Assembly: GCA_022844165.1 (NCBI GenBank)
Contig: JALHMH010000005.1
Span: 1-64,000, forward strand
Direction of reading: 5' to 3'
DNA length: 64,000 nt
DNA from: Lysobacterales bacterium
Lineage (GTDB): Bacteria; Pseudomonadota; Gammaproteobacteria; Xanthomonadales; SZUA-5
In this document: positions 21,648 through 52,219 of the stretch, one piece after another
Layout of the letters: every line of letters starts with the position of its first letter
How positions within the stretch are numbered: position 1 is the first letter of the stretch
The notes under the pieces: model-generated
Told to the model about the DNA's origin: nothing
The model's database searches: none
Seen by the model: only the letters and a program-made list of their open reading frames with translations
Translations under genes and position numbers: made by a program

Positions 21648-22769
21648 GTGCCACAAACACTTTGGTTACGCGCGGCGCCGAATCGCCCTGTCGAGTGGCT
21701 GGTGCGCGATCCGCAGGGACGAATCGTCGCCGGCCCAGAATTGCTGCGCGCAGATTCGGTTCTGCCGAGCGCGGACAGCAGGATCGCCATCTGGAGCGAT
21801 CCCAGTTTGATGCTGCGCCGCGTTGAGCTGCCCAAGTCCGGCCTGGCGAAATGGCGCCAGGGCCTGCCTTATCTCGCGGAAGATTGGATCGCCGGCGACG
21901 TCGCGCAAGTTCACGTTGCGGCACCGACCCGGCTCACCGGGCGCGACACCTTGGTGGCGGTTGCGGACCGCGAGCGTCTGGTGGCGTTGCTCAGCGAACT
22001 AGCGCAATTCGGAATCGACGTGGATCGGCTGGTTCCGGAACCCGCGCTGCTCGGTCCAACGCATGCGGCCGATGTGCTGATCGACGCTCAGTATGCTTCG
22101 TTCTGCAATGCCGAACACGGCGGCACCACCGAAACCGACATGCTCGCGATGCTGGTCGATCCCAATGCGCGCATTCTGATCGGCCGAACGCCGCATGGCG
22201 AGTGGCACGGCGATGGCATCGAATCCGTGCTGCGCTGGGCGTCTTTGCAGCGCATCGACGACACCACGCTCGATCTGCGCTGCGGCGAATTTGCGAAGAC
22301 CCGGCGCGAATCACGTTTTCCGAAAATGCCCGTGCTGGCGCTCGCTGCGGCACTTCTGGTGCACACGCTGGCGCTGGTCTTCGACTGGTATCAGTTGCGC
22401 GGTCAGGTCGCGACGGCGGAAGTGCGAATCGAGACCGCGTTTCGCGATGCATTCGGCCCCGATGAGCGCATGGTCGATCCGGCGTTCCAGTTGCAGCAGG
22501 CCGCTCGCGGCGAAGCAAGCACGAGCCATGCAGGCGCCCTGGCTTTGCTGCAACGCATTGCACCAGTGCTCTCCGGCAGTCGCATGGTGCTGGTGAGTTT
22601 CGAGTATCGCGAGGGCGTTTTGGAGCTCGCGGTGCGTGCGCCGGATGCGTCGCAGTTCGACGGCTTCCGCGAACAACTGGTCAGCAGCGGACTGTCGATC
22701 GAAATGGGCAATACGCAATACGATGCCAATGAATTCACCGGCCGGCTAAAAATTCGGAGCGCAGGATGA
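21648..22769 (+). CDS. gspL: Type II secretion system protein L
   Basis: GspL-like actin-fold cytoplasmic domain followed by TM segment; followed by M and N. Confidence 0.85.
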   Translation: MPQTLWLRAAPNRPVEWLVRDPQGRIVAGPELLRADSVLPSADSRIAIWSDPSLMLRRVELPKSGLAKWRQGLPYLAEDWIAGDVAQVHVAAPTRLTGRDTLVAVADRERLVALLSELAQFGIDVDRLVPEPALLGPTHAADVLIDAQYASFCNAEHGGTTETDMLAMLVDPNARILIGRTPHGEWHGDGIESVLRWASLQRIDDTTLDLRCGEFAKTRRESRFPKMPVLALAAALLVHTLALVFDWYQLRGQVATAEVRIETAFRDAFGPDERMVDPAFQLQQAARGEASTSHAGALALLQRIAPVLSGSRMVLVSFEYREGVLELAVRAPDASQFDGFREQLVSSGLSIEMGNTQYDANEFTGRLKIRSAG

Positions 22770-23242
22770 ACGCATGGTGGCGTGGATTGGCCGATCGTGA
22801 GCGAACGCTGCTGCTGGTGGCTGCGGTGGTGATCGGCGTATGCGTTTGGTGGCTGTTGTTGTTGCGGCCGCTCGGCGCTGCGCGCGATGCCTTGGCGGAG
22901 CGGTTGCCGGTGGCGCAGCGCCAGGCGCTCGAGGCCGAAACGGCAGCGATGTCGATCAAGGCACAGCCCGCGCTTGGGCAAATGCCGCGGGTTGGGCGAT
23001 CGCTGCTCGCGATGGCGGACGCCACTGCGCGCGACGCCGGTTTGGGCAAGGCGCTCGACCGCGTCGAACCACAAGGTGAGCGAGAGGTCCGCGTCTGGCT
23101 CAAAGACGCCCATTTCGACGCACTGGCAACCTGGGCCGAACAACTCAATCGCGAGGGCATCATCGTCAGCGAATGGTCAGTGGATCGTGCGCTGGCGCCG
23201 GGCGTCGTGAACGCGCGGCTGGCTTTGAAGGAATCGCCGTGA
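22766..23242 (+). CDS. gspM: Type II secretion system protein M
   Basis: Single N-terminal TM, position after gspL, GspM-like length. Confidence 0.82.
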   Translation: MNAWWRGLADRERTLLLVAAVVIGVCVWWLLLLRPLGAARDALAERLPVAQRQALEAETAAMSIKAQPALGQMPRVGRSLLAMADATARDAGLGKALDRVEPQGEREVRVWLKDAHFDALATWAEQLNREGIIVSEWSVDRALAPGVVNARLALKESP

Positions 23243-24003
23243 AACGCTGGCTGTTGTGGGGATCGCTCATTTTGCTGGCGCTTGCGGCCGTGCTCGCCGC
23301 GACCTTGCCGGCGGCGGTGGTGTGGCGCCACATCGCACCAAACGTGCCGGATCTTGCGCTCGAGTCGCTCTCGGGAACGGTGTGGCGAGGCGAGGCCGGC
23401 AATGCACGTGTACGCGGTTTCGCCCTAGGCAAACTGCGTTGGCAGTTGGCGCCCTTGAGCCTGCTCTCGGCACCGACTGTGCGCCTGGCGCTCGACGGAA
23501 AGGATCTGGATCTTGAGACGACTGTGCGCAGCAGTGGCACCGACACCGAATTCACCTCGTTGACGGCGACCACCGACGCCGCATGGTTATCGCCCGCGTT
23601 GGCGATTCCCGAGCTGAAGCCGGAGGGCGAATTGGATATCGCCATCGAGCGTTTGCTGATTGGACAAAATGGCATTCCGAGTGTGATCGCGGGCAGCGCG
23701 CGCTGGCGCAAGGCAGCAGTGACAGGTCGCGTGCGCGCCGATCTCGGCGATATTGAGCTGTCGGCGCGCACGATCAACAAAAAAATCGAATTGACTGCAC
23801 GTGACGATGGCCGCGGCGCACTGATCGTCAACGGCAATTTCGAGATTGAGGGCAGTACTTATCGTGGCCGCGTTGCGCTGACACCGCGCAACGCGGATCC
23901 TGCCCTGATAGAAGCGCTGCAGTGGATCGGCGCGCCCCAACCCGACGGCAGCCGTCTGTTGATCGTCGACGGCACCATCCGGGCGACTCAGGTTCAGCTG
24001 TAG
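23239..24003 (+). CDS. gspN: Type II secretion system protein N
   Basis: GTGA overlap with gspM; VKRWLLWGSLILLALAAVLAATLPAAVVWRHI, GspN-like. Confidence 0.82.
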   Translation: MKRWLLWGSLILLALAAVLAATLPAAVVWRHIAPNVPDLALESLSGTVWRGEAGNARVRGFALGKLRWQLAPLSLLSAPTVRLALDGKDLDLETTVRSSGTDTEFTSLTATTDAAWLSPALAIPELKPEGELDIAIERLLIGQNGIPSVIAGSARWRKAAVTGRVRADLGDIELSARTINKKIELTARDDGRGALIVNGNFEIEGSTYRGRVALTPRNADPALIEALQWIGAPQPDGSRLLIVDGTIRATQVQL

Positions 24004-24882: not shown

Positions 24883-26190
24883 TCAAGGGCAGCTCAGCCC
24901 CACACCACGATTGAAGGTGCGGGACATGTCGACTGAACCTGGTCCGCCCCAGCCGCTCAACGTGGGTGTGTACGAAACGGTGAGTTGACCACAGTTGGCG
25001 TACCGCAGGCGCACGTTGCCCCAGCTGATGAACTGAACATCCTGGGCTTGGAATGCGCTTCCGAATCGCGCACCGCGGGTGATCGACACGGGCATGTCGA
25101 TATCCTGATTGACGGAACTGCTGTTGAGGGTGGCCACACCGGATAGATACGTCGGATTGCCCGCCGGATCGTAGGTGAACCACGCGAAGAACAGCAGGCT
25201 TCGATCGACAAATGAAGGGTCTGGGTTTCTCACGACTTCGATCATGACACCCTCGCCCGCGCGACGCGGGTTCCACCAGGTGCCACCGAATCCGGCGTCA
25301 ATTCCAATCAACCCCCGCACCGTGGCCGGCACCAGTGTGACCATCGTGCTGCCGCGGGTATTGCTTGCCGCACCAATGCGGATCCAATAGGTGGTACCGC
25401 TCACGGCGTCGAAGCTAACTTCGGCGTCGAGATTTCCATTGACAAAATCGATATCGTCGACGGAGCCGACCAAGGTTAACGCGTTCAACGCGCTGCCCGT
25501 AAACACGTCGACGATCGAGTCGAAGCCAGCGTTAACCGTCCTGATGGTATAGCGCTGCGAACTCGTGGCCGCGAACCGATACCAGGCGGTGCGAGAAGCG
25601 GCTCCCGGTTCGCTGGCTTCCGTTGTCGCAGCGGGCGAATTCAGAAATACGTTGTCACCGACCGACAAAGCAGCAGCGTTGGCGAATAGATCATTCGGTG
25701 GCGGCAGAGCGATCGGAATACCCGTTGGCGTAAACGAATAATTCAGCACGTAGCCACCGCTGTTGACGTTGTTGCGACTACCATCGATGGCCAGATAGTA
25801 CGTACCGTGGCCGAGGATGACTTCGACCGAGCTGCTGAAATTGGTTGCGGAGATATCGTCGTTGCCGCCAACCAGCGCCAGCTCGCTCAAATTTGCGCCG
25901 CGATACACCGCCAGCGTGGTGTCGAATTGCGACCCGATAGTATCGGCGTTGAACCGATAGGGACGGTCAGTATTGATGCGAAACCAATGGCTCTTTCCGG
26001 TTGCAAACGGGCTGATACCGATTTCCCCGAGCTGCGCGGTCGCCGTTGAAGTGCTGCCTTGAATGGTGCCCTGGTCGAGCGGCAGCGTCGCTGTGGTGGC
26101 CCCTAAGGCAAATCGATCTGTCCCCTGCGCAAACAATGGGCCGGCGAGCACGAAGCCGGCCGCGAATAGCAAAGTCAAACGCAATTTCAT
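24883..26190 (-). CDS. Secreted protein with PPC-like domains and C-terminal GTWWNP...AWFTYDP domain
   Basis: Signal peptide; HWFRINTDRPYRF...GTYYLAIDG (PPC-like); C-terminal GTWWNPRRAGEGVMIEV...FFAWFTYDPAGNPTYLSG. Confidence 0.8.
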   Translation of the reverse strand: MKLRLTLLFAAGFVLAGPLFAQGTDRFALGATTATLPLDQGTIQGSTSTATAQLGEIGISPFATGKSHWFRINTDRPYRFNADTIGSQFDTTLAVYRGANLSELALVGGNDDISATNFSSSVEVILGHGTYYLAIDGSRNNVNSGGYVLNYSFTPTGIPIALPPPNDLFANAAALSVGDNVFLNSPAATTEASEPGAASRTAWYRFAATSSQRYTIRTVNAGFDSIVDVFTGSALNALTLVGSVDDIDFVNGNLDAEVSFDAVSGTTYWIRIGAASNTRGSTMVTLVPATVRGLIGIDAGFGGTWWNPRRAGEGVMIEVVRNPDPSFVDRSLLFFAWFTYDPAGNPTYLSGVATLNSSSVNQDIDMPVSITRGARFGSAFQAQDVQFISWGNVRLRYANCGQLTVSYTPTLSGWGGPGSVDMSRTFNRGVGLSCP

Positions 26191-47810: not shown

Positions 47811-49115
47811 ATGCAACGTTCGATCTCTGCGATTGCCCTGCTCGCACTCGCGTCATCTGCAAATGCACAAACATGCAACCATCGGCTGCTGGTCAGCGGC
47901 TATTTCAGTTCCGTACATGTGTACGATGCCTGCACTGGCGCCTACGAGCGGTTGCTTGACGATCAGAACCGGATTCGCGGCCCACAAGCCACGCGAATCG
48001 GGCCGGACGGGAAACTCTATGTCGTATCGGAAGAAACCGGGCAGATCCTGCGCTACAACGCCACGTCGCTCGCGTACGAAGGGGTGGCCGTCACGTTGCC
48101 GGCTAACTTTGGCGCCACCGGCATCGACTTTCGGAACGGCGAAATCTACATCGGCGGTTACAACTACGACGGTGTGCAGCGCTATCGGCTGAGTGATGGT
48201 ACGCTGGTTGGCGATGCCTTCCCGCGCAGTGCAGCGGGCTTGAATGGCCCCGACAACGGGTTGGTCTTTGGCCCCGACGGCCGTTTGTACGTACCTGGAT
48301 TCGACAGCGACTCCGTCGTTCGTTTCGACCCAATCACCAACACGGTCAACGTCTTCATCGCTGCACGCGCGGGAACTTTGGACGAAACGCGCGGGATCCT
48401 GTTCGAGCCTGGCGCCACCACTCTGCTGGTCGCCAGCGAACGCAACGGCAAGGTGCTGCGCTTTAACGCCGACGGCAGTTTCAACGGCGACTTCACCACG
48501 GGCCTTTCGCGGCCCACGGGTCTCGCTTACCATCCGGACGGCAGCGTGCTGGTCGCACATGTTGCCGGCGTGAGCAAACATGATCCAGCCACCGGCGCCT
48601 CGCGTGGGTTGTTCGCAGATGCCACTGCCGGCGGGGTTTCAGGCCCAACCTTCGTGACCGTGATTCCGAAGGCGGCGACTGTCGATACTGCGCAAGTCGG
48701 AACTCAGTACTGGATCAGTGGTTTGGGCAATGCAAGCGGGCGCAGTATCGTTGTCGATCAAATGGCCAGTGCGACCGGCGCGCGCTTCGGCGCAGCATTT
48801 AACCCCGCAGCGATCGCGCGCAAACGTTGGGGTTCGCTCCGCATTGATTTTACCAGCTGCACCGAAGGCCAATTTTCCTGGCAATCGAGCGGCGCCGACA
48901 GCGCCGGTTTCGGCGATGGCAACTACCGCATCATTCGTGCCGTAGAAAACGACGCCACGCAGCGCTGCCTGAGCGCTGGTTTCGCCAACGCAAACGACCT
49001 GTTATGGACCATTGGCACCTGGTTCGGTGGCGCATCGCGCGACGGCGAAGGCCTGATGATCGACAGAACCGCCGACGGTCGACCATTCGTCGCCTGGTTT
49101 ACGCATCGGCCGTGA
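47811..49115 (+). CDS. Secreted NHL/SMP-30-like propeller protein with permuted C-terminal domain
   Basis: Signal peptide; repeats such as GPDGKLYVVSEETGQILRYN; C-terminal YWISG...GTWFGGASRDGEGLMIDR...FVAWFTHRP. Confidence 0.8.
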   Translation: MQRSISAIALLALASSANAQTCNHRLLVSGYFSSVHVYDACTGAYERLLDDQNRIRGPQATRIGPDGKLYVVSEETGQILRYNATSLAYEGVAVTLPANFGATGIDFRNGEIYIGGYNYDGVQRYRLSDGTLVGDAFPRSAAGLNGPDNGLVFGPDGRLYVPGFDSDSVVRFDPITNTVNVFIAARAGTLDETRGILFEPGATTLLVASERNGKVLRFNADGSFNGDFTTGLSRPTGLAYHPDGSVLVAHVAGVSKHDPATGASRGLFADATAGGVSGPTFVTVIPKAATVDTAQVGTQYWISGLGNASGRSIVVDQMASATGARFGAAFNPAAIARKRWGSLRIDFTSCTEGQFSWQSSGADSAGFGDGNYRIIRAVENDATQRCLSAGFANANDLLWTIGTWFGGASRDGEGLMIDRTADGRPFVAWFTHRP

Positions 49116-50128: not shown

Positions 50129-52219
50129 CTACTCGAACCCATCGATGAGCAGTGGTTCACTGGTACAGACGCGCGAACGCTCTGGATCGATGTAGACATG
50201 GAATGCGGCGCCCGCAGGAATCGCCGCACCGTCGCCGCGCTCGATGGCCCATTGTCCGCGACCCTGTGTCGCAGAGTTGTAGCTCAACAGCAGATTGCTC
50301 GGTACGTACACGTTGTTCGGATTGTAAACGGCGGTGACGAAAGGATGTGCGCACTCGATGTTGTCCAACAAGGGGTGGCTGATGTTGAGTATCTGCACCG
50401 CAACGCCCAGTGGTTCGGTCCGAAACGCGTGGGTTCCTGCGGCAAACAACGGGTTGGGAATGAGCACATTGAATGCAGCGCCTTCGGGCATCGCAGGTGG
50501 GAGACCAGCCACGGGCGCTTGATTGAAAACGCGCCAGCGATTGACCGATGTGTCGAACCACACGCCGATCGAGGAGTTGTTGTAAACGCCACTACCAGCC
50601 TGTGCCGGATCCCACCGCTGTGTCACGATCGGCAGCGCGTTTGGCTGATTGTTGAGTTGCGTGTTGTCGAGCGTCGTCAGGTTGAAACCGGTGTTCGCCG
50701 CGACGGCGGTGTGCACGTACGAGGTTTGCGTATCGATGTTCAGCAACACGAAGTAGCGCCGCCCGGTGGGCATCGGCGCACTCGTGTTTTGGTTGAAGAT
50801 GTTCCACAGGTTGATGCCACCGCTAAACCAAACACCGGTATGGTTGGCCGCGCCGGCAGGTAAAGGTGTCACGCCATCGATCTCGCGACCGAAGTGGCTC
50901 AGCGTGAGATTGTCGTTCGGTAGCAGTCCGACGGGTGGCGTTGCGATGCGTGTGACATTGCTATTGACATTGGCCGCCAGGCTGTAGTGTTCGAAACTCT
51001 GATCGAAGCTGCGCTCGTGCGCACCGATATCCACGGTCCCGCCGACGCGCCCTGCCCGGCCATCGATATCGGGCAAGGGAACAGGAACAATGATCACGAT
51101 CACCGGCTGATCGCTATTGTTCCCGGCGTTGACTTGTGGTGCCCCACTGTCTCGCGCCTGGAAATCGAATGGGCCGCGAAACCTGGCGATCGCGTTCACA
51201 TCGTTCGCGCCTGCCACAGTATTGCAGTAGGGCGTTGGGCTCTGCGAGTACAAATTGAAATTGTGCGTGGTTGAGATACCCGCTGCCGAAAGGAACTCGA
51301 TTCCACAGTTGGTTGCGCGATGCACAATGTTGTTCGCAATGCGCCCGGCAACCGTGTTGCTCGCATCGCGCTGCAGGGCTACACCGGACAAATTGGCCCC
51401 AGAAAGCGTGTTATTGAGCACCGATGCGATCAATGGCGCCGCCGTTGCGCGGATGACCACACCGGTGTCGACATTGAAGATCGCATTGCGCGTCACACGC
51501 ACCGTTGCAGGCAACGTGCCACCACCGGTTCCCGATACGAAAACCCCTGCCGACAGGGTTCCGCCGATCGGCAGTTGCTGCAGCCGACCAATTCGGTTGC
51601 CGTTGATGTTAACGGCCCCGTCGTGCGCCGAAATCAAAGCGGCAACGCCGGATCCTCGCACCAGCATTTGATTGTTGCGTACATTGATCGCCGGTCGTGC
51701 CGCGCCCACACCGCCATCGAAGAACAGTGCCGCACCAGAGGGATTGCCTTGCGTAAGATAAGAGCGTTCAACAGTCACGGTGTACGTCGAGGCCGCACCA
51801 GCTGCCTCGCTGATTTGCACGGCCGAAAACGAGGTACCGCCGGGCTCCAGGCGCATGTTGTCGAGCCCGATCGATTGAGTTTGGGCGACGACGCCAGATC
51901 CAACCCGGACGAAAACCTGGCCACGCAGGCGCAGATTCGACAGTGATATGTTGATGTTGGCCCCGGTCGCCGTCAGGTCAATGCTCCGTCCATCGGCGAA
52001 TAGGGCTGCGGCCCCCCGTTTGGTCAGTGTCAGGCTCTTGTTGGAGATGATCAGCGATTCGTTGATTACCCCTTCGGTCGTGATCTGCACGGTATCGCCG
52101 GTTGCCGCGGCATTAATACAGGCCTGCAGCGTGGTCGAACAGATACCGCTGCCCGGCCAGTTCAATTCGGCCGCTACTGCGGAATGACTTACCAGGGCGA
52201 GCAGCAATAGGCGTCTCAT
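50129..52219 (-). CDS. Secreted right-handed beta-helix protein with repeated GVWF..NxWxxFNQ C-terminal modules
   Basis: Signal peptide; beta-helix-like repeats; tandem GVWFSGGINLWNIFNQ / GVWFDTSVNRWRVFNQ; C-terminal IDGFE. Confidence 0.8.
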   Translation of the reverse strand: MRRLLLLALVSHSAVAAELNWPGSGICSTTLQACINAAATGDTVQITTEGVINESLIISNKSLTLTKRGAAALFADGRSIDLTATGANINISLSNLRLRGQVFVRVGSGVVAQTQSIGLDNMRLEPGGTSFSAVQISEAAGAASTYTVTVERSYLTQGNPSGAALFFDGGVGAARPAINVRNNQMLVRGSGVAALISAHDGAVNINGNRIGRLQQLPIGGTLSAGVFVSGTGGGTLPATVRVTRNAIFNVDTGVVIRATAAPLIASVLNNTLSGANLSGVALQRDASNTVAGRIANNIVHRATNCGIEFLSAAGISTTHNFNLYSQSPTPYCNTVAGANDVNAIARFRGPFDFQARDSGAPQVNAGNNSDQPVIVIIVPVPLPDIDGRAGRVGGTVDIGAHERSFDQSFEHYSLAANVNSNVTRIATPPVGLLPNDNLTLSHFGREIDGVTPLPAGAANHTGVWFSGGINLWNIFNQNTSAPMPTGRRYFVLLNIDTQTSYVHTAVAANTGFNLTTLDNTQLNNQPNALPIVTQRWDPAQAGSGVYNNSSIGVWFDTSVNRWRVFNQAPVAGLPPAMPEGAAFNVLIPNPLFAAGTHAFRTEPLGVAVQILNISHPLLDNIECAHPFVTAVYNPNNVYVPSNLLLSYNSATQGRGQWAIERGDGAAIPAGAAFHVYIDPERSRVCTSEPLLIDGFE

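Follow-up and report, generated by a model that had tools for sequence, protein, structure and literature searches.

A rotated segment order conserved in secreted Lysobacterales proteins, read as a natural circular permutation of a calycin-like barrel

Two secreted proteins encoded in a 64,000-nucleotide stretch of a Lysobacterales genome (contig JALHMH010000005.1, positions 1 to 64,000, hereafter the window) end in the same two conserved segments arranged in opposite orders, A-B in a comparison protein and B-A in a second protein, P0001. This rotation is a conserved feature of the sequences: a search of 399 Lysobacterales genomes with an alignment of the permuted module (A1) found it in 37 of them, across nine families, where it ends 44 distinct proteins. 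Structural modelling confidently predicts that the rotated strands form one compact domain, and we consider it very likely that the last 143 residues of P0001 are a naturally circularly permuted calycin-like barrel, an account that includes a flip of its tether, a binding or anchoring role and an origin by trimming of a tandem array. Precedents exist for natural circular permutation, for calycin barrels and for engineered permuted streptavidin; in the limited open-access literature covered, we found no report of natural circular permutation of a lipocalin-like, avidin-like or other beta-barrel.

Segment order and its conservation

P0001 consists of a signal peptide, an NHL/SMP-30-like propeller, segment B and segment A, followed immediately by the stop (Table 1). 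Both it and the comparison protein are intact open frames with signal-peptide-like N-termini, in keeping with a sequence-only reading that had taken both for secreted proteins. That reading had also described their ends as A-B and B-A, with P0001 stopping directly after A, and both descriptions hold; the reading had not mentioned that the comparison gene is on the minus strand.

Table 1. Features of P0001 and of the comparison protein, in window coordinates
Feature	Position	Strand	Basis
Gene of secreted protein P0001, 434 aa plus stop	47811..49115	+	Full-length orthologs
Signal peptide of P0001, MQRSISAIALLALASSANAQ	47811..47870	+	By eye
NHL/SMP-30-like beta-propeller of P0001	47868..48668	+	Pfam NHL exceeds its cut-off; related propellers found
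Permuted module of P0001, residues 292-434, predicted order b4-b5-b6-b7-b8-b1-b2-b3	48684..49112	+	AlphaFold2, rotated-profile tests
Segment B (b4-b8) of P0001, through second conserved Cys (residue 386)	about 48705..48968	+	Ordinary-only B model
15-residue junction of P0001, old C- to old N-terminus, predicted partly helical	48969..49013	+	AlphaFold2, junction-length comparison
Segment A (b1-b3) of P0001, GTWFGG...VAWFTHRP, stop directly after	49014..49112	+	Ordinary-only A model
Gene of comparison protein: signal peptide, PPC-like repeats, ordinary A-B domain	24883..26190 (stop 24883-24885)	-	
Segment A (b1-b3) of comparison protein	25165..25305	-	
Segment B (b4-b8) of comparison protein	24886..25158	-	

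We built hidden Markov models from 13 ordinary domains of the window genome only, one each for A, for B, for A-B and for those A-B columns put in the rotated order B-A. Searches with the separate segment models, which the sequence-only reading had proposed, recovered B (62.4 bits, E 9.5e-18) and, positioned after it, A (30.4 bits, E 4.5e-8) in P0001, with no extra A upstream of B and no B downstream of A. The rotated model outscored the unrotated one in P0001 (80.2 versus 56.6 bits), while the comparison protein, itself one of the 13 seeds, gave the reverse (126.4 bits unrotated, 65.0 rotated). Profile-profile alignment (hhalign) of the permuted modules with the ordinary domains (alignment A2) covered 86 columns, essentially B, when unrotated (E 4e-22), and 121 of 122 columns in a single path after rotation (E 3e-35). 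Comparison of like segments, whose failure the same reading had named as one possible refutation, was significant for both A-A (1e-18) and B-B (7e-25), and crossed comparisons of A with B yielded no significant match. Both halves of the permuted module are therefore individually homologous to the ordinary domain.

The permuted set was defined as A1 matches of at least 136 bits, below which a clear gap separates it from a next group at 110 bits or less; the members of that group that were fetched are A-B-A-B proteins matched over their internal B1-A2 junction. Each of the 44 permuted proteins carries a single B and then a single A, stops 0-13 residues past A (median 4), and scores higher with the rotated than with the unrotated model, by 12-35 bits (median 27). 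Full-length homologs of P0001, aligned to its last residue, occur in many genera of Lysobacterales. Permuted and ordinary modules co-occur within the same genomes, and no permuted module turned up outside the order in 369 genomes sampled at class level and 299 at phylum level; the strong class-level matches that were classified hold either one A-B domain or an A-B-A-B array.

Because the window genome is assembled in 59 contigs, an error at a single locus was conceivable in principle. The stop after A in P0001 is nonetheless not an assembly error, as a stop 0-13 residues past A recurs in a relative with 83% identity and in 42 further permuted proteins. Given 44 independent sequences with one intact frame each, E-values reaching 1e-20 for B and 1e-11 for A, and orthologs that refute it, we regard chance motif resemblance or an assembly or frameshift artefact as exceedingly improbable. 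Two narrower ideas were rejected as well. The 43 further permuted proteins rule out a damaged A-B-A-B array private to the window genome, and the residues TVDTAQVGT before QYWISG are not a leader left behind when a first A was lost, since orthologs lack an A leader there and the QYW/QAW start matches the GQQAW/GNPTY start of ordinary b4.

The ordinary A-B domain has many more matches in the window genome, single or as A-B-A-B arrays (C6:21340-21711, C6:65766-66521, C23:2033-2842, C36:42537-42905 and others, L011-L019), and is present in 138 of 200 sampled Lysobacterales genomes, often in ten or more copies per genome, while being rare outside the order. By eye, it forms the C-terminus of secreted proteins with varied N-terminal parts (PPC-, cupredoxin-, cyclophilin- and propeller-like). 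Pfam and NCBIfam hold no family for either form, a Cbm74 match being weak (E 0.004) and under its cut-off; an abundant, secreted and unnamed domain such as this deserves its own family entry. The comparison gene adjoins a TonB-like gene and type II secretion genes at 21648-24003 (+), comprising T2SSN (Pfam) and a GspL-like frame (by eye). Secreted proteins of the ordinary A-B type are possibly type II secretion substrates.

Predicted fold and junction

Structures of both forms, whose prediction the sequence-only reading had called for, were modelled with AlphaFold2 from shallow input alignments (16 and 15 rows). Each form is predicted as a single confident domain, the permuted module (A1 alignment) with pLDDT 90.7 and pTM 0.85 and the ordinary domain (A2 alignment) with pLDDT 86.5 and pTM 0.80. 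The permuted model has strands at residues 8-14, 21-31, 45-56, 61-67 and 78-85, a helix at 90-98, and strands at 111-114, 123-128 and 134-141, with a short strand at 16-18 left out of the count; the ordinary model has strands at 8-11, 19-26, 36-45, 51-60, 69-77, 91-104, 107-114 and 123-129. Matching strands by homologous columns gives the order b1-b8 for the ordinary domain and b4-b5-b6-b7-b8-b1-b2-b3 for the permuted module, a rotation by three strands that places the new termini in the predicted b3-b4 loop.

Both models have eight main strands, and their Foldseek matches are weak, with all E-values above 1e-3 and TM-scores of at most 0.47 among the best-ranked matches. The top PDB match of the permuted model is a circularly permuted streptavidin, 4gda (E 6e-3, probability 0.98, TM 0.37), and the ordinary model matches best to lipocalins (nitrophorin and retinol-binding) and to designed barrels (E from 1e-2 upward). 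Given these scores we assign the domain only tentatively to the calycin barrels (lipocalin/avidin-type). The assignment is strengthened by the calycin signature, a Gly-X-Trp on the first strand (A) and an Arg on the last (H) (PMC3367933), which is kept in both the ordinary domains (G 0.93, W 0.89, R 0.84) and the permuted modules (G 0.89, W 0.68, R 0.89); in the permuted sequence the Arg precedes the Gly-X-Trp. A second conserved Cys directly follows b8, so that it lies near the C-terminus of ordinary single domains and opens the junction in permuted ones, and it may form a disulphide with the Cys of b6.

The segments could instead be half-domains, a B and an A left from two barrels of a tandem array, which would need a domain-swapped dimer or remain unfolded. 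A-B-A-B arrays abound in these genomes, and the permuted profile matches the B1-A2 stretch inside them, but one compact domain is predicted, every permuted protein has a single B and a single A, and the junction from Cys to GxW measures 15 residues in 36 of 42 modules (range 11-16), as opposed to 12 to 26 residues for the internal linkers of 15 arrays. A fixed, partly helical junction points to part of one fold rather than to a linker between halves of different domains, and we judge the half-domain explanation improbable. The sequence-only reading had left a choice between a true circular permutation and a tandem array cut back at both ends, with termini that are adjacent in the fold. The rotated-profile test, the recurrence of the module and the prediction of b4-b8 followed by b1-b3 in one domain speak for the first; the near-constant junction length speaks against the second as a description of the present protein, leaving it plausible solely as an evolutionary route.

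Parent proteins and evolutionary origin

By N-terminal homology, the permuted module follows a propeller in 38 proteins, an SGNH-hydrolase-like part in three and a family with an HExxH motif in the remaining three. The SGNH-hydrolase-like partner carries GNSLTY and DxFHPS motifs, and its best solved relative is an uncharacterised protein (4s1p, E 1e-4). The HExxH family (L045, L075 and L082, with HEASHTSLD, HEGVHTSLD and HEAVHTSLD) has an N-terminal part lacking a Pfam match, possibly an undescribed metallopeptidase-like domain.

A search with the propeller alone revealed related propellers that bear the ordinary A-B domain (L139/L154, L151, L152 and L153, and the more distant L155) and others that end in a short tail (L133, L134, L136 and L137). 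One starred clade of the propeller tree holds B-A bearers along with these tail bearers and the four closer A-B bearers. Likewise, the SGNH-hydrolase-like gene beside a propeller gene ends in B-A in L080 and L084 and in ordinary A-B in L090. The same slot on related propellers and SGNH-like proteins thus holds either topology, indicating that the two replace one another in place.

At L080, L084 and L090 the propeller gene is followed by the SGNH-hydrolase-like gene on the same strand, both ending in a module of the A-B/B-A type, and the two genes are perhaps a functional pair. The tail of the module-less propellers, (I/L)(F/I)xDGFE, occupies the position of the module and recurs at the C-terminus of a window protein with two DUF7452 matches (50129-52219, -).

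In trees, the permuted modules cluster within the ordinary family, with two to three label changes, and a single permuted clade is not rejected; constraining them to one clade improved the log-likelihood by 14 units over the free search (p-AU 0.83). This is what a single origin predicts, short of proof, and the module most likely arose once. Tandem duplication followed by trimming is a route to circular permutation (PMC3320104), and it is the likeliest here because A-B-A-B arrays are common and one of them (L043) follows a related propeller; we therefore favour trimming of a tandem A-B-A-B copy as the most likely source.

A true permutant could also have formed by fission and fusion or by cut-and-paste. 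The A-B-A or B-A-B intermediates that the sequence-only reading had suggested looking for were not seen among the classified proteins, and permuted A segments find their best ordinary match in a first rather than a second repeat in 33 of 44 cases, which does not favour an origin from B1-A2; both observations suit these other routes. The trees and nearest segments offer too few columns to tell the source repeats of permuted B and A. Set against the abundance of tandem arrays and the array behind a related propeller, and with no stand-alone halves noticed in passing, such a route appears unlikely, though it keeps an appreciable share of the probability. One candidate intermediate, L020, first read as A-B-A, proved to be an A-B-A-B array whose last B has diverged.

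Possible function and comparison with known barrels

In an up-and-down barrel, consecutive loops alternate between the two barrel ends. The permutation would have joined the old termini through the short, partly helical junction and opened new ends in the b3-b4 loop, so that the chain would run through b4-b8 and then b1-b3 into a single barrel. Because three strands is an odd number, the b3-b4 loop should lie at the pole opposite the old termini. The barrel would then be turned round relative to the propeller, its tether on the loop side rather than at the base. This is the side that holds ligand in lipocalins and streptavidin, and the cut may have opened a ligand-side loop. The loop joining strands 3 and 4 of streptavidin covers its ligand, and a circular permutant without this loop binds biotin with an affinity reduced about a million-fold (PMC7385176). 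The permuted module probably serves as a cup for binding or anchoring, in the C-terminal slot that the ordinary form also takes.

We give about an even chance to the fullest version of this proposal, in which a natural permuted calycin-type barrel, kept across the order and cut at the loop that engineers chose in streptavidin, flips the pole of the cup that faces its propeller, SGNH-like or HExxH-bearing partner. Somewhat less probable, yet a serious contender, is a real but functionally neutral permutation, in which it makes no difference to the working of the barrel which loop is open or where the tether sits. Neutrality would fit related propellers that bear either topology or merely a short tail, but the permuted form is kept across nine families with conserved features of its own (a Tyr before the b8 Arg, GG after GxW, and R-x-G-E-G). 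As both forms occur in the same genomes and replace one another on related parent proteins, a direct test is possible: permuted and ordinary pairs let one ask what changes when the termini of a barrel are shifted to its opposite end.

One close comparison is the ordinary A-B form, which shares the eight predicted strands, both conserved Cys, the G-x-W/Arg signature and the C-terminal place on secreted proteins, but has the order b1-b8, termini expected at the other barrel end and frequent A-B-A-B tandems. Lipocalins (nitrophorin and retinol-binding protein, of the calycin superfamily) resemble this ordinary domain in the Gly-X-Trp of strand A and the Arg of strand H. They differ in a C-terminal helix packed on the barrel, whereas the ordinary model has no helix past b8; the ordinary domain is also shorter, its structural scores are weak, and no sequence match is significant (best E 0.02). 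Engineered permuted streptavidin (4gda; discussed in PMC7385176) is, like the predicted model of the permuted module, an eight-stranded barrel with termini in the strand 3-4 loop, a weak likeness seen only at the level of the fold (TM 0.37). It is engineered, tetrameric and biotin-binding, whereas the module described here is natural and fused behind other domains. Saposin/swaposin and other natural circular permutations (PMC3320104) represent the same kind of event, with a rotated domain order and tandem copies in the family; they involve other folds, and here the rotated and ordinary modules exchange on the same type of parent protein.
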